Positions 4,980-44,110 of a stretch of 64,000 nt of DNA are shown here, piece by piece. A model generated the notes under the pieces. The model saw nothing but the letters and a program-made list of their open reading frames with translations, was not told the DNA's origin and ran no database searches. A program made the position numbers and the translations under genes. The stretch lies in assembly GCA_947630805.1 (NCBI GenBank), contig CANRIV010000007.1, positions 1-64,000 on the forward strand, read 5' to 3'. How positions within the stretch are numbered: position 1 is the first letter of the stretch; each line of letters opens with the position of its first letter. The stretch comes from an uncultured Lachnospiraceae bacterium (GTDB lineage Bacteria > Bacillota > Clostridia > Lachnospirales > Lachnospiraceae).

Positions 4980-5046
4980 GCGATATACAAAGGCTCAAAC
5001 TGGGATTTATCAATTTTTTGCAACAATAAAACATCAAATTTCCTGT

Positions 5047-6117
5047 CTAACTTGCTTTATCTCTTTTTAACCCAAACAAAAAACTTATTACCGTATTCTT
5101 CTCAATTATGTAACAAACACTGCAAGTCATAATTGTTGATATTAAAAGTGATAGTACAAAATTATGTACACTTCCCACTCCTGTCAAAGAAATGAAATAT
5201 TGACACAACACCACTATTGGGAAATGCACTATATAAAACACATATGATAACCTTGAGCAGTATCTGCTAACTTTATTAGAATGACTCAGATATTCTTTTC
5301 CAAGACAAACCAAAGCTGGAATTCCAGTTACAAATGAAAGGTAATTACATATATTATTTAATAATTCATAATCTTCAATATATACAAACAAAATCGCATT
5401 CATTATGGAAGATAAAACAAATACGAATACAAATAATATCTTTATTTTTACAAGTTTTTTAATAAATTCTTGATTGCTAAACAAATAATATCCAAGCAAA
5501 TATACACATAAATATGCAGGAATTCTCTCTCCCAAAAATGTCACATCAAATACAGCAATTGCAAGTATGATAATTAAACAGTTTATGATAAGCATGATAT
5601 TTCTATTGTTCCTGCTTATACAATCAATAAACTTTATCACGCCACAGCCTAAGCAGGAAATAATAATCAGCACAGCAATAAACCAAAAGTGTCCAAGTGT
5701 AAATCCACCGTCATATCCTGTTAAATCTGTAAACCTGGTAAAATATACCGAATAATGTTCGAAATAATTACCATCATATCCATTATGTGATTTATCTGCA
5801 ATAAAACTCAATATTGGATTGATGATTGTAATTCCCAATAATAATGGTATTCCCAATCTTATGAATCGTTCTTTGATAAAATCTGAATATCCTCTTTTCT
5901 TGAGAGAAAATGATGCTGATACTCCTGCAAGCAAAAACATTAAAGGCATAAACCACGGTGATATAAACACCACTATTGATGCAATAAGATTAACTCTTTC
6001 AAAAAAAATATAATTTGCTTCTCTCCAAGAATTGTAGGCTATACCCAAATGATATATTATCAACAAAGAAACAATTGCAGTTCTTAAGTTGTCTATATAG
6101 TTAACTCGTGAATTCAT
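5047..6117 (-). CDS. Acyltransferase family 3 membrane protein
   Basis: This gene encodes 356 residues with about ten hydrophobic segments. The N-terminus (NYIDNLRTAIVSLLIIYHLG) and the early conserved His fit the acyltransferase_3 family, integral membrane enzymes that O-acylate sugars, peptidoglycan or lipids. I chose the ATG at 6117 because AAAGGAG lies 10 nt before it. The open frame runs a further 66 codons upstream, but those codons spell the end of a cupin domain and belong to a separate broken gene. The substrate cannot be told. Its AT-rich composition and position between mobile genes suggest cargo. Confidence 0.75.
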   Translation of the reverse strand: MNSRVNYIDNLRTAIVSLLIIYHLGIAYNSWREANYIFFERVNLIASIVVFISPWFMPLMFLLAGVSASFSLKKRGYSDFIKERFIRLGIPLLLGITIINPILSFIADKSHNGYDGNYFEHYSVYFTRFTDLTGYDGGFTLGHFWFIAVLIIISCLGCGVIKFIDCISRNNRNIMLIINCLIIILAIAVFDVTFLGERIPAYLCVYLLGYYLFSNQEFIKKLVKIKILFVFVFVLSSIMNAILFVYIEDYELLNNICNYLSFVTGIPALVCLGKEYLSHSNKVSRYCSRLSYVFYIVHFPIVVLCQYFISLTGVGSVHNFVLSLLISTIMTCSVCYIIEKNTVISFLFGLKRDKAS

Positions 6118-31000: not shown

Positions 31001-31082
31001 AATTTATTATTTCTCCTTGCTCTTTGTCTTAATTTGCTCCAGGGGTTTCTGACAGACATTTTCCCAATCCGTCTTTCTTTTG

Positions 31083-31970
31083 TCAGTCTTCTCTCTCACT
31101 TCCCCAGAAGAATAAAGCTACCGTCCCGGGTCCTGTATGGCTGCCAATGGTTGTTCCAATTTCATTAATTTCTACTTTCCCTTTGATATTTGGAAATTTT
31201 TCTTTTACTAAGGCAGCTACCGCTTTTGCGTCTTCCGGACATGCAGAATGTGACATGTAGCATTTATCATTGTACTCCAGACCATTCTGTGCATGCTCTT
31301 CCATCTTTGCCACCATAGCTTTCATCACTTTTTTCTTTCCCTTTACCTTGGCTCTTGGTATTAGTTTTCCCTCGAAATCCACATTTAATAACGGACAGAT
31401 GCCTAAAATACCTCCTACAACACCGGCCGTCTTAGAGACTCTTCCTCCCTTAATAAAAAAGGTCAAATCCGTCGAGAAAAACCAATGATGTACTTTTTTC
31501 TTATTCGATTCTGTCCATTTGTACAGTTCGTCAATGCTCATTCCCTCTTTCTTTAAGTCTGCCATTTTGTCAATTAAAAGTCCGCACCCGGAGGAAGCTG
31601 CAAGAGAGTCCACAACATATATTTTTCTGTCCGGATATTCTTCTTCCAAATTTGATTTTGCAATCATAGCTGAATTAACGGTACCGGAAATACCGGAAGA
31701 AAGACATACATGAATGATATCCTTTCCCTGTTCCAGATATTTCTTAAAATGTGCCTCATACTCATCTGCATTGACCTGATATGTTTTTGTTTCTGCTCCG
31801 TCTACCATTTTTTGATAAAATACATCAAACGGCATCGTTTTTCCTAAATCATCCTGATAGGAAACACCATCCAGTTCATAGTGAAAACATACATAAGCAA
31901 TATTTTTCTTCTCAAAATGTTCTGCTGTCAAATCTGCTGTAGAACAGCTGCTGATTACATATTCTCCCAT
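31083..31970 (-). CDS. DegV family fatty-acid-binding protein
   Basis: This gene encodes 295 residues. The markers are YVISSCSTADLTAEHFEKKN, the motif TKTYQVNADEYE in place of TSSQPS, the serine-rich turn VCLSSGISGTVNSAMIA near residue 90, the RVSKTAGVVGGILGICPLL loop, and SHTGPGTVALFFWG near the end. The changed substrate-site motif suggests a different acyl chain preference from its neighbour. The role is probably as a FakB-like fatty acid carrier. It lies 31 nt after the flavodiiron protein gene and may share its transcript. Confidence 0.92.
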   Translation of the reverse strand: MGEYVISSCSTADLTAEHFEKKNIAYVCFHYELDGVSYQDDLGKTMPFDVFYQKMVDGAETKTYQVNADEYEAHFKKYLEQGKDIIHVCLSSGISGTVNSAMIAKSNLEEEYPDRKIYVVDSLAASSGCGLLIDKMADLKKEGMSIDELYKWTESNKKKVHHWFFSTDLTFFIKGGRVSKTAGVVGGILGICPLLNVDFEGKLIPRAKVKGKKKVMKAMVAKMEEHAQNGLEYNDKCYMSHSACPEDAKAVAALVKEKFPNIKGKVEINEIGTTIGSHTGPGTVALFFWGSERED

Positions 31971-32001
31971 AAATACTTTCTCCCTTTTTCCTTTATATGA
32001 T

Positions 32002-33165
32002 TTACTGATTGTGTATTAACACATTAGCTAACACTTTCATCTGCTCCACATTTTCCGGTTTCATAGCGGATTTCACTGTAATAATCGGCTCTATCAGATG
32101 AATTTCTTTCATCCCCTCCAGCGCCGCTTTCATTACTCTTGCCGCACTAGGGGCCCAAGAGCCGTTTTCAATGATAGCAACTGTTCTTTTCTGATAATTT
32201 TTTATTTTTAAATGACTTAAAAATTTTTCCATCGGAGGAAATACTCCACCATCATAAGAAGATGCTGCCAGAACAATTCTGTCATACCGAAAAGCGTCTT
32301 CCACACACTCATGCAAATCCTCTCTGCACAAATCTGCAACAACAACTTTCTCGCATCCTTTCTCTTCTAAAATTTCTTTTAATTGATATGCCGCTTTTGC
32401 GGTATTTCCATGAATTGACGCATGGGCAATGAAGACTCCTTTATCCTCCGGCTCATACTTGCTCCATATATCATATTTTCCAATATAATATTCAAGATTT
32501 TCTGTGAGTACCGGTCCATGAAGCGGACAGATTGTATTCACGTCAAGTGCTGCAAGTTTTTTCAATAGTGCCTGCACCGGTGCACCATATTTTCCTACAA
32601 TATTAAAATAATATCTTCTCGCTTCACAAGTCCAGTCCTCATCGGCATCCCTCGTTCCAAATTTTCCAAATCCATCTGCACTAAATACAATCTTTTCAGC
32701 ACTCTCATAGGAAACCATGACCTCTGGCCAATGTACCATTGGTGCCATCATAAATGTCAGTTTGTGCGTCCCAAGCTTTAGTTCATCACCCTCTGACACA
32801 ACAATTTCCTTTCCCGTCAAGTCTACATCAAGAAACTGTTTTATCATAGGAAATGTCTTTGCATTTCCTACCACTTTCATTTCCGGAAATTTGCGAATCA
32901 GTTCCATCAAACTGCCGGAGTGGTCCGGCTCCATATGGTGCACAACGACATAATCTACACTTCTTCCATCCAGCGCCTGATCCAGATTGGTAATCCACTC
33001 TTCAACAACTGCGATATCTACAGTATCCATAACTGCCACTTTTTCATCTAAAATCAGATAAGAATTGTATGCCATACCTTTTTCCAGTACATACTGACTC
33101 TCGAATAACGTCGTCTCATAATCGTTTACTCCCACATTGATAATTGTATCTGTCACTTTTTCCAT
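32002..33165 (-). CDS. fprA: Flavodiiron protein (FprA-type O2/NO reductase)
   Basis: This gene encodes 387 residues. The first 250 form a metallo-beta-lactamase fold with the di-iron ligands HHMEPDHSGSL and later His residues (PMVHWPEVM, CPLHGPV). The last 140 are a flavodoxin domain (VFIAHASIHGNTAKAA). Such enzymes reduce oxygen to water or nitric oxide to N2O in anaerobes, protecting against oxidative or nitrosative stress. I chose ATG 33165, 8 nt after GGAGG; the in-frame ATG at 33180 encodes that site. No rubredoxin domain is attached, so the electron donor is a separate protein. Confidence 0.95.
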   Translation of the reverse strand: MEKVTDTIINVGVNDYETTLFESQYVLEKGMAYNSYLILDEKVAVMDTVDIAVVEEWITNLDQALDGRSVDYVVVHHMEPDHSGSLMELIRKFPEMKVVGNAKTFPMIKQFLDVDLTGKEIVVSEGDELKLGTHKLTFMMAPMVHWPEVMVSYESAEKIVFSADGFGKFGTRDADEDWTCEARRYYFNIVGKYGAPVQALLKKLAALDVNTICPLHGPVLTENLEYYIGKYDIWSKYEPEDKGVFIAHASIHGNTAKAAYQLKEILEEKGCEKVVVADLCREDLHECVEDAFRYDRIVLAASSYDGGVFPPMEKFLSHLKIKNYQKRTVAIIENGSWAPSAARVMKAALEGMKEIHLIEPIITVKSAMKPENVEQMKVLANVLIHNQ

Positions 33166-33302
33166 ATGAGATACCTCCAACCATTTTTCTTTTTGTTATA
33201 TTTTCTACTATTTATAATACCCTTTTTCTGGAATTGAAACAAGCAGTACTTTTGTTTTATAAAATATCGCCTCTTAGCATGCTTTTAGCCTTTTGACTCA
33301 CA

Positions 33303-33331
33303 TTGACTTTTCTAAACACATTAGATATAAT
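33303..33331 (+). promoter_or_regulatory. Strong sigma-A promoter facing the hairpin array and restriction-like operon
   Basis: TTGACT (33303-33308), a 17-nt spacer and a perfect TATAAT (33326-33331). A start near 33338 would transcribe the hairpins at 33349-33454 first and could continue into the operon beginning at 33696. Confidence 0.65.
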
Positions 33332-33348
33332 TTTATTGATTTTTTTTA

Positions 33349-33454
33349 GAATATGAAACACATCAAGTGTTTCATATTCGTACTTGACCAGCTCCATTAG
33401 GAGCGTGCTTTGCGAAGCAAAGTTTTGAAACGGTTATCCTTTACCGTTTCAAAA
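33349..33454 (+). ncRNA. Array of four hairpins, possible structured RNA or leader
   Basis: Four inverted repeats follow one another: GAATATGAAACAC/GTGTTTCATATTC (33349-33379, perfect 13 bp, loop atcaa); GCTCC-atta-GGAGC (33391-33404); CTTTGC-gaa-GCAAAG (33408-33422); TTTTGAAACGGT/ACCGTTTCAAAA (33423-33454, perfect 12 bp). The right arm of the first could also pair with the left arm of the last through GTTTCA/TGAAAC. No coding frame is visible here. The rest of the gap up to 33695 is AT-rich with no signal I can name. An RNA is inferred from the promoter and folds; a repeat element is the alternative. Confidence 0.4.
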
Positions 33455-33695
33455 GTTATACAAATAGAACACTTTTTAGTATAAATTTAATATTTTCTCC
33501 TTCTCTGTCGCCTCAGTTCCAACCCCGCAAGTTGACAGATATTCTGTTTTATATAAATCCCATGTTATGATACGAAAGGAAAAGAACATATTAAAAATAT
33601 TAGAATGAATAATTTCGCAATTGAAACAATTTCGATTCATATATGAATAACGGATTAACAGTTTCTTTATGTTATGTGTTTTTGGAGGAAATTTT

Positions 33696-34838
33696 ATGGC
33701 AACATATCAAGATTTTATAGATTCATTACTTCCTGGAAACTATGCTTTAACGAAATCAATGGAGCTAACGAAAATACAAACGAGTGGTACTTTATGGTAT
33801 ACAAAAAAGTTTCTCGTTCTGTATTACTATGTTTTTTTATCCAATGAAATATTTACGAAAGAATATATTCATAAAGTAGTAGACATCTTTGACACATACA
33901 TAAACACACTAGATGACAGCGTTAAAGAAGATGCAAAAATATTTTTTTACCCAGAGAATGAGACCATGAATTTTAAATCTCATTCCTTTAAAACATTTTC
34001 TTCCTTTGCTGGACAAACCGAATTTTTATCTCAGGAAGAGCGCAGAACATATATCCAGAAGGCAAAAAAATGTTATTTCGCACTCTTAATGAATTCTGGT
34101 GGTCAGACTGGTGTGAAAAAATTTTTAAAAGAATCTTTACAGTCAAAAGATTTTTGTTATTCTGAGACATCAATCGCAGAGATTCTTTATACTTCTGCAA
34201 TAAATTCTCTTACGATTGACGTAAATAAAGAGCATAAAATCAAAGATAATTCAATTAAATATATTTTGTCTGAAAAAACTATGCAGCAAGCGGTTTCTCT
34301 ATCTCTTACAGGAACAGTTACCACGAAAGAGATTGAAAAATTGGCCCGACAATATCCAAATCCAAATCCTCACTATGGGAGCATTGAAAATGACATGGTC
34401 GCATTTATTCGAAATGAGCGACAGATATTATATTATTATGGATATTTTCATTCGAAATCTTCCGGTGCAAATGATTTAGAATTTAGCAGTTTAACTCCAA
34501 TAGGAGAATTAGCCTTAACAGCAAATGCCATAGAATTTCTGGCAATTTGGGAACATCAAAAAATAAAAATGATTTCTCAACCAGAAACAGTAATCATAAA
34601 CAAGTTATCCATTTGCCAAAACAATCCGGAACGGTTTGCCATAAGTTTTTCGCCTTATACAGACATTTTAGAACACTTAATGAAAAAGGGGTCTCTTTCA
34701 TTGGAGGAATATAAACTTGTCATTGGCAGAAAAAACCGTCGAATCAATAAAGATTGGAATGACATAGAGTCCGAAATTTTTACTCATTTAGACGATATAA
34801 AACAAACCGTTTATGGTTTCCAACGACGGGGGAGATAA
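33696..34838 (+). CDS. Unrecognised protein, first gene of restriction-like operon
   Basis: This gene encodes 380 residues. ATG 33696 has GGAGG 8 nt upstream; the frame also opens at 33669 without a site. I recognise no family motif. The sequence is AT-biased, rich in Lys, Tyr, Phe and Ser, with no signal peptide or membrane segment, so it is cytoplasmic. A helix-turn-helix-like stretch may lie near residues 205-225 (TKEIEKLARQYPN), and the C-terminus is basic (RKNRRINKDW, FQRRGR). Its last 26 nt overlap the HNH nuclease gene, which shows tight coupling. It could be a specificity or second nuclease subunit, or a controller; this is inferred only from context. Confidence 0.7.
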   Translation: MATYQDFIDSLLPGNYALTKSMELTKIQTSGTLWYTKKFLVLYYYVFLSNEIFTKEYIHKVVDIFDTYINTLDDSVKEDAKIFFYPENETMNFKSHSFKTFSSFAGQTEFLSQEERRTYIQKAKKCYFALLMNSGGQTGVKKFLKESLQSKDFCYSETSIAEILYTSAINSLTIDVNKEHKIKDNSIKYILSEKTMQQAVSLSLTGTVTTKEIEKLARQYPNPNPHYGSIENDMVAFIRNERQILYYYGYFHSKSSGANDLEFSSLTPIGELALTANAIEFLAIWEHQKIKMISQPETVIINKLSICQNNPERFAISFSPYTDILEHLMKKGSLSLEEYKLVIGRKNRRINKDWNDIESEIFTHLDDIKQTVYGFQRRGR

Positions 34839-35925
34839 AAATGATGAAGACAGTCGAAAAGAATTACTTAAATATCTTCTTGGTATCGTAAAAAATATGC
34901 CAAAAGATTGCGGCACTCATTATTTAAATATTGTTACATGGAACAAAACCAAAAGTACCGTCTCATGTGAAAAAAATAATATAGCCCTTTTGTATGACGT
35001 TTATTCTAGGCTAAATGACTATAAAATTCAAAAGTATCACTCTCTTTTTGAACGTTGTGAAAAAGATTTACGAAAAAGATACATTGCTTCATGCAATCAA
35101 AACCCAATTCCAATGGATTCAAAAACAAAAATTGATTGGGATTTATACAATATTCATCTTGACCAATTTATTTATCTAGGAATATTAATAACGATTGCAC
35201 TTAGCAACACTGATTTAAAAATACAAGAAATCACTGCGCTGGATTCTGACGATATTTCTAAAATTATTCGCTACATCAGCGAAAACTTTAGTACATCTTT
35301 AAAAAATATTGGATTAAAAAACAAGACTTCCATAAAACATGAAATCGCAAAAGCAATTAACGCCTTAAAGGAAGAAGAATATTCTATATATATTGATGTA
35401 ACAGAAAATCGAAAGTATGCTTACGCCTGTTACCGTTCCTGGAGCAGCAATGATCTTTATAAAAGAATTAAGGAAATTTCCTCTGAGACAAGTGTTTCAT
35501 TTGCCGAAAACAGAACAAGAAATACCAATTTAATAAATCTATTAAAATCATATTACATACAACGCTATGCAGAAAACTCAATGTTAAAATGTGAATGTTG
35601 TAAAGAAGAAACATTTATTACTGCGTCAGGAGAGCCATATGTTGAATTTCATCATCTTATTCCTTTTAACATTGCATATGGCCCAGATCATTATTTAAAT
35701 TTGTTTGCACTATGTCCAAATTGTCACAGTAAAATTCACTTTCTTAATACAAACGAAAAACAAATATACTATAAACAATTAAATCAAAACAATTATCTAC
35801 ACATTAGTTTTATAGAAAGATTGTGTACATTACGGGAGCAAAATCTATTGAGGTCATATCATCTGGAGTATCTGCTTTCTGAAAATGCAATTACGCAGGA
35901 CGATTATAATTATATCGCAGCTTAA
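34813..35925 (+). CDS. HNH endonuclease (putative restriction enzyme)
   Basis: This gene encodes 370 residues. The nuclease domain is near residues 258-310: a zinc-type CECC pair, the EFHHLIPFN histidine pair (about His280-281), an Asn in DHYLNLFALC, and a second CPNCHSKIHF pair (about residue 300). This is the fold of McrA-like and many type II HNH restriction enzymes. The N-terminal 250 residues have no motif I know and may recognise DNA or partner with the preceding protein. The ATG has no good ribosome site and lies inside the previous gene, so it is probably translated by coupling. Two DNA methyltransferase genes follow. Confidence 0.8.
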   Translation: MVSNDGGDKNDEDSRKELLKYLLGIVKNMPKDCGTHYLNIVTWNKTKSTVSCEKNNIALLYDVYSRLNDYKIQKYHSLFERCEKDLRKRYIASCNQNPIPMDSKTKIDWDLYNIHLDQFIYLGILITIALSNTDLKIQEITALDSDDISKIIRYISENFSTSLKNIGLKNKTSIKHEIAKAINALKEEEYSIYIDVTENRKYAYACYRSWSSNDLYKRIKEISSETSVSFAENRTRNTNLINLLKSYYIQRYAENSMLKCECCKEETFITASGEPYVEFHHLIPFNIAYGPDHYLNLFALCPNCHSKIHFLNTNEKQIYYKQLNQNNYLHISFIERLCTLREQNLLRSYHLEYLLSENAITQDDYNYIAA

Positions 35926-35937
35926 AGGAACTACATT

Positions 35938-36738
35938 ATGATAGAAATAGAAAAAATTAAAAACAGTGTCATTCACGCTAAATCAGAAGAATATTTAAAA
36001 GAATTTCCCTCCGACAGTATAGATTTAGTGATTACAAGTCCTCCTTATGATGATTTAAGGGATTACGAAGGAAATTTATCCTGGAATTTTGATATTTTCA
36101 AAGAAATATCTTCGGAATTGTACAGAATTGTCAAAAAGGGAGGTGTGGTCGTCTGGGTTGTTGGCGACAAAACAATAAAAGGCAATAAGTCTTTAACAAG
36201 TTTTCGTCAAGCATTACATTTTCAAGAACTTGGTTTTAATATGTATGATATTATTATCTATGAAAAATGTGGATCTGGCCCTCCACATTCCAACCGATAT
36301 TTTAATGCTTTTGAATACATGTTTATTTTAAGTAAAGGCAAACCGAAAACAATTCATCTTCTTAAAGATAAGCCAAACAAATGGGCAGGATACACTACTT
36401 ACGGCAAAGTAACGCGTCGAGAAAAAGATGGTTCTCTTACAGATAAAGGGAAAAAAATAATTGGAGAATTTGGAATCCGGACAAATATATGGAAATATTC
36501 TAATGGAAAAGGATTTTCCACCAAAGATAAAATTGCTTATAAACATCCTGCTATTTTTCCGGAAAAATTAGTGCAGGATCATATTAACTCATGGTCTAAT
36601 CCGGGAGAAATTGTTTTAGATCCTTTCGGCGGAAGCGGAACAACCGGAAAAATCGCAAAACAGTTAAATCGTAATTGGATTCTCATTGAATCTGTAAAAG
36701 AATACTGCGACATTGCCAGAAAGAGAATAGAAGGATAA
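35938..36738 (+). CDS. DNA methyltransferase, N4-cytosine type (beta class)
   Basis: This gene encodes 266 residues. The catalytic motif IV is VITSPPYDDLRDY (about residue 32), and the AdoMet-binding motif I is VLDPFGGSGTTGKIA (about residue 227), so the order is IV before I, the beta class. TSPPY is usual for enzymes that make N4-methylcytosine, though a few N6-adenine enzymes have it. The stretch HPAIFPEKLVQDHI before motif I is also typical. It starts 12 nt after the nuclease gene and would protect the host from that enzyme. Confidence 0.88.
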   Translation: MIEIEKIKNSVIHAKSEEYLKEFPSDSIDLVITSPPYDDLRDYEGNLSWNFDIFKEISSELYRIVKKGGVVVWVVGDKTIKGNKSLTSFRQALHFQELGFNMYDIIIYEKCGSGPPHSNRYFNAFEYMFILSKGKPKTIHLLKDKPNKWAGYTTYGKVTRREKDGSLTDKGKKIIGEFGIRTNIWKYSNGKGFSTKDKIAYKHPAIFPEKLVQDHINSWSNPGEIVLDPFGGSGTTGKIAKQLNRNWILIESVKEYCDIARKRIEG

Positions 36739-36742
36739 GATA

Positions 36743-38092
36743 ATGATAAGAACTGTTATTTCCTTTCAACCGTACGAACAAACAATTGAATTGTTAAAAA
36801 CAAAATATAATACACTCTCTGAAGATGGCAGTTTTTTTGCTATTTTTTCTACAGAGTATGATTCTATGGGAAATGTAATTCACGATTTTTTTCAAATCAT
36901 TCAAAAAGGGGTTTCTATGGGATATGATTATGTAAATACTATCATTTATCCTACATTAGATTTGCAAAACGTAACTTTTCCGGACAACATAAGGTATGTT
37001 GTCTGGTTGTGCAAAAATAATACTGAAATGTATTTAAATAAAGATAATATTCGTGAAAAACATATATGGAAAGATGTAGAATGGGGGAAACGGGCAAAAA
37101 ATTATAACCCTAAGGGAAAGGATCCTGGAAATGTGTGGATTCCCACCAATGATGACGGGCATGCAAATATAACGGAACACATTTTGCTTTCTGATAAAAA
37201 CATAATTGATCGGATTATATCAATGACCGATAGTTTTGAGGATAATGAAATATTTTACAATCCTTTGGTGCAAAAAAACATCGTACAAAATAAATATTCA
37301 GAAAGCAATATACGAAATGAATCGAAACCGTCCGCCAAGGTAATTTTTGATACTTCTGAAAAAATGAATTATGTGAAAGATAATTCTATAAACGTTGTAA
37401 TTACTTCTCCTCCATATTGGAATTTGAAAGATTATTTTAAAGAAGGGCAAATCGGGCAGGAACCTTATAATCAGTATCTTTCCAGAATGAAATCTGTTTG
37501 GTCAGAATGTTACAGAGTACTCAATCCTGACGGAAGTTTATGGATTAATATTAATATAAGAAAACATAATCACAAAGTAATTCTTATTCCTTACGATTTT
37601 ATAAAAATGTGTAAGGAACTGGGATTTTATTATAAAGGGATTTTTATTTGGCATAAATCTTCTGGTATTCCCACCGGCAAAAAAAATATTGTTGACCGGC
37701 ATGAATATGTACTTGTTTTTTCTAAAAAAGAAAATTTCGTACTAAACAAAAATTTTTTATCTGCTATTACTGACTATAAAAATAATTTAATAAATGGTGG
37801 TGCTTTCTGGAATATTAATAAAAAGGCCGGAAGTATCGGAAAAAAATATATTCATCCCGCTATATACCCTAATGATTTAGTATGTCGCATCATCAATATG
37901 ACGACTCAAAAAAATGATTTTGTTTTGGACCCATTTTTAGGTAGTGGAACCTCATTGATTGCTTCATTACAGTGTGGACGCAATTTCATAGGATATGAAT
38001 ACAATGAAGGTTTTCAGGAATTAATGCAATCCCGTTTTGAAAAAGAATTGACAAACTCTGATAAATCCATAGAGTTTATCAACAATTTCTAA
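36743..38092 (+). CDS. DNA methyltransferase, N4-cytosine type, with N-terminal pseudo-methyltransferase half
   Basis: This gene encodes 449 residues. The second half (about 200-440) is a complete beta-class enzyme: VVITSPPYWNLKDYF (about residue 217), HPAIYPNDLVCRIIN, and FVLDPFLGSGTSLIAS (about residue 394). The first half appears to be a worn copy of the same fold without the SPPY and FxGxG motifs: EDGSFFAIF matches PDGSLWINI, RYVVWLCKN matches EYVLVFSKK, and SDKNIIDRIISMTDS matches YPNDLVCRIINMTTQ. It starts 4 nt after the first methyltransferase. Two methyltransferases for one nuclease suggest an asymmetric recognition site, one enzyme per strand. Confidence 0.87.
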   Translation: MIRTVISFQPYEQTIELLKTKYNTLSEDGSFFAIFSTEYDSMGNVIHDFFQIIQKGVSMGYDYVNTIIYPTLDLQNVTFPDNIRYVVWLCKNNTEMYLNKDNIREKHIWKDVEWGKRAKNYNPKGKDPGNVWIPTNDDGHANITEHILLSDKNIIDRIISMTDSFEDNEIFYNPLVQKNIVQNKYSESNIRNESKPSAKVIFDTSEKMNYVKDNSINVVITSPPYWNLKDYFKEGQIGQEPYNQYLSRMKSVWSECYRVLNPDGSLWININIRKHNHKVILIPYDFIKMCKELGFYYKGIFIWHKSSGIPTGKKNIVDRHEYVLVFSKKENFVLNKNFLSAITDYKNNLINGGAFWNINKKAGSIGKKYIHPAIYPNDLVCRIINMTTQKNDFVLDPFLGSGTSLIASLQCGRNFIGYEYNEGFQELMQSRFEKELTNSDKSIEFINNF

Positions 38093-38130
38093 TCTGTCAT
38101 TATCATTTTAAAATTCTATATATAAAACAA

Positions 38131-38156
38131 TAGAGAGTTCGCAAGCGAACTCTCTA
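38131..38156. terminator. Bidirectional terminator between methyltransferase operon and GH81 gene
   Basis: TAGAGAGTTCGC (38131-38142) and GCGAACTCTCTA (38145-38156) are perfect arms. TATTTTAT follows on the plus side and TTGTTTTAT on the minus side. It separates two convergent genes. Confidence 0.75.
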
Positions 38157-38177
38157 TATTTTATAAGAATTTATTTT

Positions 38178-41100
38178 CTACTTAGAATAGACTTCCATTT
38201 CCCACAAAGAATATCCATATTGCAACGCGCGCTCTACACCCTGCATTTTGACATATCTCGCATTTACCACATTAAATGCTATCTCATCTGTTCCGCCGTT
38301 TTGTCCGGTCAGACTCTTTGCTGTCGTCCAGTCTTTTCCATTTGTTGATACCTGTATCTTATATGCTTTTCCATAAGCGCCTTCCCATTTCAGAACGACT
38401 TTATTGATACTATATGTCTTACCTAAATCTACTGTAACCCAGGCATTATCTGAAAAATCGGAAGACCAGCGCGTCCCTTCATTTCCATCTGCTACATATT
38501 TCGCCCCAAAAACATCATTTTCTGAGCCGGAAGCTGTTACCGTCGCTGATTTTGCTACATTTACACCGGATGGTGTCGTATTTTCTTCCGGTGTTTCTGC
38601 AGTACTTCCTGCTCCGCCATAGACTTCAAATTCCCAGATAGAATATCCATATGGCAACGCTCTCTTAACACCCTGCATTTTAACATATCTTGCGTTTACT
38701 GCACCAAATGTAATTTCGTCGGTACCGCCATTCTGCCCTTTTAGACTTTTGACTGTCATCCAGTCCTTTCCATTGACAGAAGTCTGAATATCATAGTTTT
38801 CTCCGTAAGCGCTTTCCCACTTCAAAACAACTTTACTTATCTGATATTCTTTTCCTAAATCTACTGCAATCCATGCGTCATCTGAAAAATCGGAAGACCA
38901 ACGGGTCCCATTGTCCCCGTCCACAGCTTTGTCGGCTGACGTCGCCTCAGATTCTGCACCGGACTGTGTTGTCTTCTTTCCTTTTGCAAGATTTTCATCC
39001 AGTTTTGGTGTTTCTGCAGTACTTCCTGCCCCGCTATAAACTTCGAATTCCCAGATAGAATATCCGTATGGCAGCGCTCTCTTAACGCCCTGCATTTTAA
39101 CATATCTCGCATTTACTGCACCAAATGTAATTTCATCGGTACCACCATTCTGCCCTTTTAGACTCTTTACTGTCGTCCAGTCTTTTCCATTGACAGAAGT
39201 CTGTATATCATAACTTTCTCCGTAAGCACCTTCCCATTTCAGAACAACTTTGCTAACCTGGTATTCTTTTCCTAAATCTACTGCAATCCATGCGTCATCT
39301 GAAAAATCGGAAGACCAGCGCGTTCCTTCATTTCCATCTGTCACATATCTGGCTGCAAAAACATCATTTTCTGAGCCGGAAGCTGCCACAGCTTTTCCCT
39401 CTGCCAGATTTACGTTTCCTGTCGTATCTCCTCCCGGATTTTCCTGTGTTTCTCCATCAATTTTGTATTCTGCCACAGCTACTTCAGATGCAATCATTCC
39501 TTTACGGTATGCAATTGCTTTTATTGTCGTATTTTTACTAATCTTAACTGTCGGAATATAAAGTTTTGAATTTTCATCTGGTATTGAGCCATCTGTTGTG
39601 TATCTGATTTCTACACCCTTTGTCGGACTGCTAATCATTAATTCCTGTGTGCCCTGATAATTTCCGGAAGGGAGACTGAATTGCGGTGCCTGTACTTTGG
39701 CCGCCTCATATACCCCCATCTCCCACAGAGAATATCCGTAAGCAAGGGCTCTCTTAATCCCCTGCATCTTTACATATCGGGCGTTTACAGCATCAAAGAT
39801 AATTTCTTCTTTTCCGCCTTTTCCATTGGATGTGTTATAGACTGTCTTCCAGTTGTTTCCATTTTCTGAAACCTGTATCTCATATGCTTTTGCATAAGAA
39901 GCTTCCCAATCCAACGTTACTTTGTTGATGGTATGCACTTCGCCTAAATCAATTTGACTCCACTCATCATCGCTAAATTCAGAAGACCATCTTGTACTTG
40001 TATCATTATCAACAATTTTATCTCCACCTACAGATGGATTTTCTGCAGAAGAAACCGTTATATTTTTTCCCAAAGCAATATTTGTATCCAACGATACCGG
40101 CGTGCCATTTACTGTAATTGTGCTTGAAGCCATCGCTGATGTAATATAGTTTTCCTTCACTGCGATTGCCTTTATTGTTGCCGTACTGGAAACCGCAAAT
40201 GTTCCATCATATACTTTGGAAGTTTTTGTCGGCATTGTTCCATCTGTTGTATAATAAATCGTTGCGCCTTCTGTTGCTGTCTTAATTGTCACATACTGTG
40301 TATCATCATATTCGCCGGTTGGCACTGAAATTTCAGGTGTTTCTGCCTGAACAATATCAAAACTTCTATCCTTGTATACTTCAAAGCTTACCAACGCTTT
40401 TGCTCCAATTGTTGCTGTTCCGATTTTACCGGAAACATTATAGAATGTCACAATTTTTGTCTCGTTCGTCGGATTCCATACTGTCGCTGTATACCTATTT
40501 GTCTCCCGGTTATAGTAAACTGCCGCAGAGCAGTCTCCCGTTGCAATAATATCTGTCGTTTTTACACCCAGTTCTTTCATCGCATGAATAAACCAGTAAG
40601 TATTTGCCGTATCTGTCCTCTGCACGCTTGTATCATTCTGCAGGAATTTTTCCAGTGCTAGGTTTGGATTTGTCTGAGAAAGGAATGGCCACGTAATATG
40701 CTGCCATCCGGTATCAGCCTGCGGATAATCCTTCAGCATCTTATCAATCTCTTCCTGACTCTTTCCTTCTTTATTTGCCGCTTTTATGGCTTTTTCCATC
40801 GCAATATCAGTATCGTCCAACAGGCCCTGATAAATTTCAGCACATCTTTCCTGATTCATTCCATAGTAAGTCAAATATTCCGAAATTGGCAGCCACTGAA
40901 TACCGTATACATATAATGGCTGTCCGCCAAAGAATGTGCCGTAGAAATTAATTCCACCATAAACCTGACCTACTACATCATATGGCCAGGCATCAATCCA
41001 GTTATCTTTATCATAATCAAACCAATACTGTTTTACGGCTTCCATTTCATTGGTAAATCCAAAAACTCCGGCATCTCTGTATGTATCATTTTCTGTGAGA

Positions 41101-43730
41101 ACACCCCAGAGATACATACTTACCCAGCTGAACAATGATTCGCTGGCTGATTCCTGATTATTTCCGGAATCATTGTCTGCATATCCGCCTGCCCAGGAAT
41201 GTCCTTCATACAAATCATACGCTCTGAATCTACAATACTCATCATCTTTATCGGACGGATTTGCATAATCTCTGATTAACAGCTCTATCATATCTTTATA
41301 ATCATGATAAAATTCTTCATCATATGTTGCCAATACAGTCGCTGCAAACATAAAATATCCGTATGTAAAATGATGATCACAAATAGAGGCATTTGCACCA
41401 AACTCACTCTGTTCGTAATACAACGTTCCCCAGTTTGGATTATAAATCAAATAACTGATATCCTCTTTACCATCATACGTAAACCAGTTGACAAGTATCT
41501 TTTTAATTCTTGCAAGAAATACATCTCTTAATTCTGTCTCTCCAATCTGGTCAGCCATAAGAACTCCCATTCCTAATGGATGAAGATTTTTTCCTTCCCA
41601 ATAAGCATCTCCTGCCGGATTAAGATTTTTTGTAGCGTCCTCAAGTTGATTTAAATATCCAAGTACTGCCTCTCCATCAAATTCTGCATTTTCCGGAAGT
41701 GCAAACGTTGGAAGCAATCCTGCAAAATCAGAGACTGTTTTAAATGAATTTCCTTCAATAACTTTCATATCGCCCCGAACAGATGTATATGTGCTAAACG
41801 CCCCATTATCATCCGAAGAATTTTTCCACTGATGTGGCAGCATGCAGAGAATTGTCTGATTAGAAAAACCAGTTCTCTTTTCTTCTGTCGTCACAGAATA
41901 ATTTGAAGTTATTTTTGCCTTGCTGTCATCATAGCTGTAAGTTACCATCGTATCTTTGACAAAAGCATATCCATGACGATAAAACGTTTCTATCTGTGAT
42001 TTATCTGTCATAGCACCAACTGACATATATCCGTTATCAGATGGGAATGTTACTTTGATATAACTTCCAACCTTCTTGAATACTGTTCCTTCCGGAACGC
42101 TGAGACAATAATAGCTTTTTGCTGTTTTCGTTCTCTCTTTATTGTCGCTGTCTGTAATTTCCATTCCGATATGGTCTGTGCTTATCGCAGATAGATTTTC
42201 ACTCAATATATCATTTCCCGCCCCATCAAAAATTGATGTAATAGAGGAAGATGAAACATAAATTGTTCTTGTCGTTCCATATTCGGTATAGACATATGGG
42301 GAGCCTTTTACATGCGTACTCTTCATTGCCACATGATTGTCATCACAGAGTTCTGCAGTCACTGAAAAATCGCTGTAGTCCAGCACTTTATCACAGGCAG
42401 TTGCTGTATCCAGATTTTCCGGAAGAATATAAAAATCAATTTCTGTCTCTGAATTTACAGACACATTGACGTCTGTCTCTCCCATATCCGGAAGCCATCC
42501 TTCTGTGGCTGTTAATATTCCAAGACCCTTCGTGGAATATTTTGTTTTTAATGGCATTGTAGAAAGCATATGTCCAAACTTATTAATCAAAATAGACTGC
42601 CACCAGTCATTACTGTCGATTGGACTTTTTACACTATCGTCTTTGTACACCGGCAACTTTGCTTTCTCATTGTACATTGAATTGGTAAGATAAGAGCCTT
42701 TTCCTTTTGTTACAACATAAGACTCCGGCAGTTTTGGAATATTGTAAGATGGCTTTTCCTCTCCTGCTTTGTATTCGTAAACTTTTAATTCTTTTATACT
42801 AAATCCACTACCACTTTCAACTCTTGTATATCCATACACTCTCACATATCTCGCTGTGGCAAACATTGGAATGTCAGCCGTCTCGTATCCGTATCCTTTC
42901 AGTTGTCTGTAAACTGTATTCCAATCTTCTCCATTCGCCGATACCTGAATATCATACATTTTTCCTGCATCAGAAGACCAGTCAATTACGATGCGTCCGA
43001 TATCATAATTTCTTTCTAAATCCACCATAAACCACTGGTTATCTTTTTCGCCCGATGTCCAATAAGTGTTGTCATTTCCATCCACTGCATTTTTGGCCAG
43101 AACAGAGGTCTGATCAATGACGCCATTGTCATCATACATCCACCATACATCTCTCAGAGAGGAAGCAGATGCTGTTTTATTCTCTGCAATATTCGTTCCA
43201 TAATCTTTTGGTCTTTTTGTTACTCCATCTAGCCCGTACACTTCAAACTCATAAAGGGAGTAACCATATGCCGCCAGTGCTTTTTGGGTCATGTACAATC
43301 TTATATATCTTGCACTACCCTGTATGTTGAGTTCTTCATTTCCACCCTGACAGTTATTGTTTTCATAAATATCTCTCCAGTTTTCTTCATCATTGGAAAC
43401 CTGGATTTTGTATTCTTTCGCATATGCACCTTCCCAATATAGTTTGACTTCGGTAAATTCAGCCACTTTGCCCAAATCTACATAAATCCATTCTATATTG
43501 CTGGTCCATCCGCTTTCCCATCTTGTTCCCTTAGAGCCGTCATTCACGTATGTTGGATCACTGTTAGAAACAGACGAGCTGGCATAAATCATTCTCCCCT
43601 GAGAAATAACATAGGGCGAGTTGTCTGCCGCTTTTGCCTGTTGCATTGGTATCATTCCAGCTATCATTGCCAATACTACACACGTTGCTGTAGCCTTTTT
43701 CACTTTGGTAAAGAACTTACCTTTTCTCAT
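38178..43730 (-). CDS. Secreted GH81 endo-beta-1,3-glucanase with six discoidin (F5/8 C) domains
   Basis: This gene encodes about 1850 residues. ATG 43730 has GGAGGAG upstream and begins a signal peptide (MRKGKFFTKVKKATATCVVL ... AKA); the frame extends 27 codons further without reason. Order: two F5/8 C domains (about 35-320), GH81 catalytic domain (about 325-1100), a chitobiase-like Ig repeat, a third F5/8 C domain, another Ig repeat, and three more F5/8 C domains to the end. GH81 signs are DHHFTYGYFMFAATVLATYD and EGHSWAGG ... NQESASESLFSW, the conserved Glu cluster near residue 860. GH81 enzymes cut long beta-1,3-glucans such as yeast or plant glucan. No LPXTG or SLH anchor is seen, so it is probably released. 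Confidence 0.92.
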   Translation of the reverse strand: MRKGKFFTKVKKATATCVVLAMIAGMIPMQQAKAADNSPYVISQGRMIYASSSVSNSDPTYVNDGSKGTRWESGWTSNIEWIYVDLGKVAEFTEVKLYWEGAYAKEYKIQVSNDEENWRDIYENNNCQGGNEELNIQGSARYIRLYMTQKALAAYGYSLYEFEVYGLDGVTKRPKDYGTNIAENKTASASSLRDVWWMYDDNGVIDQTSVLAKNAVDGNDNTYWTSGEKDNQWFMVDLERNYDIGRIVIDWSSDAGKMYDIQVSANGEDWNTVYRQLKGYGYETADIPMFATARYVRVYGYTRVESGSGFSIKELKVYEYKAGEEKPSYNIPKLPESYVVTKGKGSYLTNSMYNEKAKLPVYKDDSVKSPIDSNDWWQSILINKFGHMLSTMPLKTKYSTKGLGILTATEGWLPDMGETDVNVSVNSETEIDFYILPENLDTATACDKVLDYSDFSVTAELCDDNHVAMKSTHVKGSPYVYTEYGTTRTIYVSSSSITSIFDGAGNDILSENLSAISTDHIGMEITDSDNKERTKTAKSYYCLSVPEGTVFKKVGSYIKVTFPSDNGYMSVGAMTDKSQIETFYRHGYAFVKDTMVTYSYDDSKAKITSNYSVTTEEKRTGFSNQTILCMLPHQWKNSSDDNGAFSTYTSVRGDMKVIEGNSFKTVSDFAGLLPTFALPENAEFDGEAVLGYLNQLEDATKNLNPAGDAYWEGKNLHPLGMGVLMADQIGETELRDVFLARIKKILVNWFTYDGKEDISYLIYNPNWGTLYYEQSEFGANASICDHHFTYGYFMFAATVLATYDEEFYHDYKDMIELLIRDYANPSDKDDEYCRFRAYDLYEGHSWAGGYADNDSGNNQESASESLFSWVSMYLWGVLTENDTYRDAGVFGFTNEMEAVKQYWFDYDKDNWIDAWPYDVVGQVYGGINFYGTFFGGQPLYVYGIQWLPISEYLTYYGMNQERCAEIYQGLLDDTDIAMEKAIKAANKEGKSQEEIDKMLKDYPQADTGWQHITWPFLSQTNPNLALEKFLQNDTSVQRTDTANTYWFIHAMKELGVKTTDIIATGDCSAAVYYNRETNRYTATVWNPTNETKIVTFYNVSGKIGTATIGAKALVSFEVYKDRSFDIVQAETPEISVPTGEYDDTQYVTIKTATEGATIYYTTDGTMPTKTSKVYDGTFAVSSTATIKAIAVKENYITSAMASSTITVNGTPVSLDTNIALGKNITVSSAENPSVGGDKIVDNDTSTRWSSEFSDDEWSQIDLGEVHTINKVTLDWEASYAKAYEIQVSENGNNWKTVYNTSNGKGGKEEIIFDAVNARYVKMQGIKRALAYGYSLWEMGVYEAAKVQAPQFSLPSGNYQGTQELMISSPTKGVEIRYTTDGSIPDENSKLYIPTVKISKNTTIKAIAYRKGMIASEVAVAEYKIDGETQENPGGDTTGNVNLAEGKAVAASGSENDVFAARYVTDGNEGTRWSSDFSDDAWIAVDLGKEYQVSKVVLKWEGAYGESYDIQTSVNGKDWTTVKSLKGQNGGTDEITFGAVNARYVKMQGVKRALPYGYSIWEFEVYSGAGSTAETPKLDENLAKGKKTTQSGAESEATSADKAVDGDNGTRWSSDFSDDAWIAVDLGKEYQISKVVLKWESAYGENYDIQTSVNGKDWMTVKSLKGQNGGTDEITFGAVNARYVKMQGVKRALPYGYSIWEFEVYGGAGSTAETPEENTTPSGVNVAKSATVTASGSENDVFGAKYVADGNEGTRWSSDFSDNAWVTVDLGKTYSINKVVLKWEGAYGKAYKIQVSTNGKDWTTAKSLTGQNGGTDEIAFNVVNARYVKMQGVERALQYGYSLWEMEVYSK
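38190..39460 (-). repeat. Tandem near-identical F5/8 C domain coding repeats
   Basis: The last three discoidin domains are encoded by repeats with spacing 432 and 417 nt, measured from the matching 'ttccca' point at 38199, 38631 and 39048. Blocks such as RWSSDFSDDAWIAVDLGKEY and NGGTDEITFGAVNARYVKMQ recur almost unchanged. This points to recent duplication or gene conversion. Confidence 0.85.
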
Positions 43731-44110
43731 TTCTTTCTCCTCCATAAGGTTTGTGCAGGACCTCCGGATTTCCTGCTGTAAATAACTTTTGAAATGTAGC
43801 GCTATTGTCATTTTAACCGGACAAAATTTTTCGCCAGTTTAAAAAACATATTTTTACGATATTCAATAAAAACGTTTTTTGCAATATTTTTACAAAATTG
43901 AAAATGTTTTATTTCTATTTTTGTGCATTTTGTATATTTTTTATGGATTTTTTGCTTCTACTGACGGAGGAGTTTCATCAATTTGTCATTTTTAATTTGT
44001 TTTTTTATGTGTTTTTGAAAATTCACAAAATTTTTTTTATAAAAATATTTTTATTATTGTATCAATTCCCCTACAATACGTCTTACTTATATCATGTTCA
44101 TTGACATAAA
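43731..44110. other. AT-rich intergenic region upstream of GH81 gene
   Basis: This stretch is very rich in A and T, with long T runs. It must hold the GH81 promoter on the minus strand, but I cannot pick one -35/-10 pair with confidence. A short AAAAACGTTTTT palindrome near 43867-43878 recalls LacI-type operator centres but lacks flanking match. No gene is seen. Confidence 0.4.

Follow-up and report, generated by a model that had tools for sequence, protein, structure and literature searches.

A probable restriction-modification cassette of Type II (most likely Type IIS) with a broken nuclease gene and a two-domain methyltransferase in an uncultured Lachnospiraceae bacterium

Restriction-modification (R-M) systems in which an HNH nuclease of Type IIS is accompanied by two methyltransferase activities are already established, HpyAII and HpyAV being the examples, and the kind of system considered here is thus a known one. 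HpyAII of Helicobacter pylori (GAAGA 8/7) pairs an HNH Type IIS restriction enzyme with two methyltransferases, one of the N6-methyladenine (m6A) and one of the N4-methylcytosine (m4C) type (PMC7494987). HpyAV (CCTTC 6/5) is likewise an HNH Type IIS enzyme whose asymmetric site needs protection on both strands, and lateral transfer was proposed by its authors (PMC2816704); MnlI has also been named as an HNH enzyme (PMC4081073). The locus described in this study lies in a stretch of 64,000 nucleotides from an uncultured Lachnospiraceae bacterium (assembly GCA_947630805.1, contig CANRIV010000007.1, positions 1 to 64,000, forward strand; hereafter the window), where a first-pass annotation had proposed a four-gene restriction-like operon as a candidate for an undescribed system. 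We consider it probable that the locus is a rare and compact cassette of Type II (most likely Type IIS) that moves horizontally and has three genes, R, M1 and M2, with R broken in the window and M2 combining a dead reader with a live writer.

The layout given by the first-pass annotation, with its four open reading frames (ORFs), overlap, gaps, HNH nuclease, two methyltransferases and terminator, agrees with the coordinates, Pfam matches and fold statistics obtained here (Table 1). The second ORF matches the HNH family PF01844 (E 3.6e-8), while both M1 (E 8.8e-47) and M2 (E 6.5e-52) match the N6_N4_Mtase family PF01555, and together with the joint retention of the genes these matches give good support to an R-M operon with two methyltransferases. 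The same content, an HNH restriction enzyme plus two exocyclic-type methyltransferases, is found in HpyAII (PMC7494987). The division into four genes, on the other hand, did not survive comparison. A single scan of genome contigs, queried with the first protein, recovered 14 related loci, and in 13 of them the first and HNH proteins are fused as one uninterrupted ORF of 678–741 codons. For this reason R is called one gene and not two, and the system is one of three genes, the first of which is broken or split here. The expectation that the genes would keep together in other genomes was borne out, R and M1 being found together in 13 of the 14 loci (in L014 the contig ends within M1) and all three genes in 12 (M2 of L014 would lie past that end).

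In the window, the N-terminal and HNH pieces of R occupy different frames, that of the HNH ORF being one step ahead of that of the first, and are joined at a run of G inside the 26-nt overlap (34813..34838, plus strand). The first ORF tracks the fused relatives until just before its last three residues and the HNH ORF does so from a few residues past its own start, and the codons homologous to the overlap share one frame in each of the 11 relatives compared. The N-terminal piece aligns to residues 1 to ~377 of the fused relatives (best segments 35–58% identical), and besides the frame break R contains no further stop. Judged from these alignments, the R gene is frame-broken in the window, through mutation or assembly error; the ORF list of the window is without obvious sign of widespread frame breaks, its other genes not having been compared to relatives. 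As the break splits R inside its recognition region, restriction is probably off in this genome, unless a sequence error is responsible for the break; both methyltransferase genes look intact.

The first protein had been presented as unrecognised, and searches of Pfam, PADLOC, NCBIfam and PDB sequences indeed gave it no match; its identity follows from the fused relatives, in which it is the front of R. A model of the 740-residue R of locus L002 gave, in a structure search, a recognition-type match within residues 1–529 and an HNH match at residues 600–707, which is the layout of a Type IIS enzyme with an N-terminal recognition region and a separate C-terminal cleavage domain. The recognition region resembles those of Nt.BspD6I, BpuJI and FokI, and the fold common to these enzymes is present in R, the alignment ending at residue 357 of BspD6I and covering the recognition domain alone of BpuJI. 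The break in the window (~residue 377) falls inside the region matched to BspD6I (11–529) and BpuJI (1–489). According to this model, the first protein supplies the greater part of a Type IIS-like recognition region and is the N-terminal half of R, not a separate subunit. Of the two roles suggested earlier for the first gene, recognition is therefore upheld by the structure match, while a separate subunit or second nuclease is not. The C-terminal piece comprises the remainder of the recognition region, a helical part and a Cys4-type HNH cleavage domain; PF01844 was found at this end of R in 13 of 13 sequences tested, and the motif CxxC-HH-N-CxxCH-H is intact in all 14 checked, that of the window among them. 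It is in the cutter that R differs from Nt.BspD6I/R.BspD6I (BstNBI), BpuJI and FokI, which cut with PD-(D/E)XK-type domains; no C-terminal domain of that type is present in R, where HNH takes its place. For BspD6I this type of cleavage domain has been described (PMC4081073). The HNH residues of HpyAII (H328–H359) are also placed differently from those of the L002 enzyme (~650–679), a comparison made by description and not by sequence (PMC7494987).

M1 is a beta-class enzyme with TSPPY and DPFGGSGT motifs, 65–74% identical to the M1 of 12 cassette relatives, and TSPPY is present in 13/13 M1 and 13/13 M2 sequences. This motif suggests the N4-cytosine type given in the first-pass annotation for both methyltransferases, but both m4C and m6A enzymes are among the nearest solved structures. 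In M2, TSPPY and DPFxGSGT occur once each, both in the C-terminal domain, whereas the motifs of an active beta-class enzyme, motif IV (xPPY) and motif I (FxGxG), are not found in the N-terminal domain. The latter does show relationship to methyltransferases, its profile matching M.RsrI over residues 86–236 only (E 0.0014), the C-terminal domain of M2 itself (E 3.4e-5, probability 72) and a separate Haloquadratum protein (probability 98.7). Weighing against this relationship, hhalign returned no similarity between the N-terminal domain and M1. The structure search for M2 (mean predicted local distance difference test, pLDDT, of the model 82.6) covered residues 195–449. From the motif pattern we infer that M2 is a built-in reader/writer pair, in which a dead N-terminal domain keeps the recognition loop and the C-terminal domain is active-looking. 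The model has its longest low-confidence stretch (pLDDT <50) at residues 110–128 (window 37070–37126), within the most conserved loop of M2; a loop that becomes ordered on DNA would be expected to look like this.

A division into reader and writer is known from the EcoP15I Mod dimer (PMC4490356) and METTL3-METTL14, but M2 holds both units in one chain, and motifs IV and I have been lost from its presumed reader. In M12.MhoVII of Mycoplasma hominis, two methyltransferase units in one Type II protein mark complementary non-palindromic motifs; both of those units are active, whereas one is degenerate here (PMC12898733). The available part of the HpyAII description makes no mention of a degenerate methyltransferase domain (PMC7494987), and the HpyAV methyltransferase is a fusion of C5 and N6A domains, in contrast to the two beta-class enzymes with a degenerate domain found here, again as compared by description (PMC2816704). 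A similar degenerate plus active-looking pair is encoded on plasmid PL100 of Haloquadratum walsbyi (HQRW_RS14455/RS14460; L016 5267–7758), but as two overlapping genes, followed by a 303-residue protein without a PADLOC hit (Pfam was not searched) and with no R or M1 relative seen adjoining; this may be a distinct R-M system that uses the same kind of methyltransferase pair. A PD-(D/E)XK-like stretch can be seen by eye in the 303-residue protein. No paper recognised as describing the R-M1-M2 cassette was found among the titles and abstract openings returned from the open-access PMC library, nor one with a FokI/BspD6I-type reader joined to an HNH cutter or with a dead/live M2, and a putative entry in REBASE is quite possible. 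We lean, by a small degree, towards an undescribed family, characterised by this reader and cutter, by a single-chain dead/live methyltransferase in the style of EcoP15I and METTL3-METTL14, and by a three-gene cassette spread over several bacterial phyla.

Under the preferred reading of a Type IIS-like cassette, R would be a single chain of ~680–740 residues, the first ~530 of which would read a probably asymmetric DNA site through the FokI/BspD6I/BpuJI-type region, and the C-terminal HNH (beta-beta-alpha metal) domain would cut, probably at a short distance beyond the site. Host protection would come from methylation of the two strands of the site by M1 and M2; in M2 the dead domain would read by means of its kept target-recognition loop while the active domain transfers the methyl group, like EcoP15I. 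The presence of two different methyltransferases is consistent with an asymmetric site without proving one. Gene content, the fusion in relatives, conservation, domain matches and the missing motifs are observed, whereas site asymmetry, cleavage outside the site, the assignment of strands, a role in phage defence and the reader role of the dead domain are parts that we infer.

The frame break in R allows other accounts. It may be that R has been inactivated and that a methylation-only remnant is kept for protection or gene regulation, an account which concerns the copy in the window and is compatible with the preferred explanation for the family. R is frame-broken here while both methyltransferase genes are intact, and decay does occur in the family, one locus (L012) being further decayed and without M1 or M2 similarity. 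Set against this, the break is the sole stop in R, and a recent mutation and an assembly error are indistinguishable from this sequence; we hold a kept remnant to be a real possibility, with somewhat less than an even chance. It is unlikely, by comparison, that the split is real and functional, with R acting as two chains or a ribosomal frameshift at the G-run yielding the whole enzyme. In favour of a working split, each piece is a long open frame and the HNH motif is preserved, the overlap includes a start codon, and in Type IIS enzymes recognition and cleavage can be divided between separate chains (PMC4081073). Yet 13 of 14 relatives encode R as one ORF, the break at ~residue 377 is within the BspD6I/BpuJI-matched region and away from the border between recognition and cleavage, and no ribosome-binding site is evident by eye ahead of the second start.

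Two further explanations concern the nature of R itself. It could be a modification-dependent Type IV enzyme like McrA that stands beside two methyltransferases by chance, as its HNH end is similar to EcoKMcrA (6ghc) and ScoMcrA, and winged-helix fusion endonucleases that require methylated adenine exist (PMC11037411). The resemblance to these two enzymes is nevertheless limited to the HNH end in the hits obtained; a modified-base-binding domain was not listed among them, though one may be present. McrA itself is modification-dependent, while the recognition region of R matches BspD6I, BpuJI and FokI, enzymes that cut unmodified DNA. R and both methyltransferases are moreover co-inherited, an arrangement that would do harm were R to cut the product of the two, and a Type IV enzyme is very unlikely. 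A categorically new defence system, with the first protein as a new effector, would fit the lack of a family model for that protein, but is extremely improbable when the protein is the front of R in the relatives and has a structure match to Type IIS recognition regions. We accordingly rejected the readings that make this protein an unknown subunit, a second nuclease or a new effector, since 13 of the 14 relatives carry it as the front of R.

The source records of the loci related to this probable Type IIS cassette are from Eubacteriales, Clostridia, Clostridium, Defluviitaleaceae, Peptostreptococcus, Anaeroplasmataceae, Bacteroidetes/Bacteroidia, Alistipes, Chitinophaga and Elusimicrobiales. 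Over 12 loci the identities of R, M1 and M2 are strongly correlated, as in co-inheritance, and the flanks of the loci have nothing in common except for four single-pair matches; no system partner beyond those pairs is shared among the flanking genes, ten chosen neighbours of which were scanned per library. On gene content and flanks, R-M1-M2 is evidently a mobile and self-contained three-gene cassette. In draws of genomes, the first protein matched one of 397 in the family draw, the source genome itself, and the R profile matched 46 of 398 in the phylum draw and 21 of 391 in the class draw, draws that overlap and include the source genome; among the matches listed outside the source genome, all were at R profile positions of at least 464, the end of R with the generic HNH domain. 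A tblastn search of 72,556 plasmid and 50,697 phage records had no match to the first protein; viral contigs scanned with alignments of R and of the M2 N-terminal domain, as well as with the first and HNH proteins, yielded no relative, and at E 0.001 nothing was matched in the viral fold library. A viral or plasmid origin was rejected on these searches.

If the preferred reading is correct, no single nuclease fold is tied to the FokI/BspD6I kind of Type IIS reader, the same reader being joined here to an HNH cutter, a natural case of module swapping that would help in building nucleases whose reading and cutting parts are separate. M2 would likewise offer a single-chain, easily dissected test of how reading and writing are divided in dimeric beta-class methyltransferases, a question which connects bacterial enzymes to METTL3-METTL14. 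The locus also gives reason for caution, as 'multi-subunit' operons seen in a single genome can be broken single genes.

Table 1. Features of the R-M1-M2 locus, in window positions.
Feature	Position	Strand	Remarks
Candidate promoter TTGACT-17-TATAAT	33303..33331	+	11/12 consensus positions; upstream of operon
R N-terminal piece ORF	33696..34838	+	380 residues counted from start behind GGAGG; listed ORF opens at 33669 (389 residues)
R C-terminal piece ORF (HNH)	34813..35925	+	370 residues
M1 ORF	35938..36738	+	266 residues
M2 ORF	36743..38092	+	449 residues
M2 N-terminal degenerate methyltransferase domain	36743..37312	+	residues 1–190; motifs IV and I missing; near-invariant loop IREKHIWKDVEWGKR.KNYNPKGKDPGNVWIPT
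M2 C-terminal active-looking methyltransferase domain	37313..38092	+	TSPPY and DPFLGSGT
Bidirectional intrinsic terminator at operon end	38130..38157		12-pair stem; T-rich flanks on both strands

Downstream of the overlap the genes are separated by gaps of 12 nt and 4 nt. The hairpin of the terminator has a fold z of -7.2, with 0 of 200 shuffles equally stable, while the operon promoter is a weak call, the region having 31 promoter-like sites and the shuffles a mean of 26.6 (standard deviation 5.6), which is no excess. The AT-rich island noted in the first-pass annotation is real: G+C is 29–33% across the five 1-kb bins of 33001–38000 and 38–42% in the adjoining 31001–33000 and 38001–41000, and isolated bins of low G+C are present elsewhere too (e.g., 29% at 5001–6000).

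A number of smaller observations were made on the related loci and neighbouring genes. L012 (5702–6920) holds a decayed R remnant with in-frame stops and no M1 or M2 similarity, and in L006 (10098–11570) ~1.5 kb with a DUF772 transposase fragment separates R from M1, that is, an insertion into the cassette. The gene directly before R in L010 (3447–4238) is weakly PtuB-like (PADLOC E 9e-4), and by this match another defence gene may stand beside that cassette. Relatives of M1 occur in 76 of the 50,697 phage records (the 15 listed are 47–52% identical) and in three of the 72,556 plasmid records (53–57% identical); in the two plasmid neighbourhoods that were read, neither a restriction enzyme nor a second methyltransferase is annotated directly beside the M1 relative. 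In the window, a protein of 1877 residues with repeated discoidin-like segments, recognised by eye, is encoded on the opposite strand (38178–43811) and faces the operon over the common terminator.
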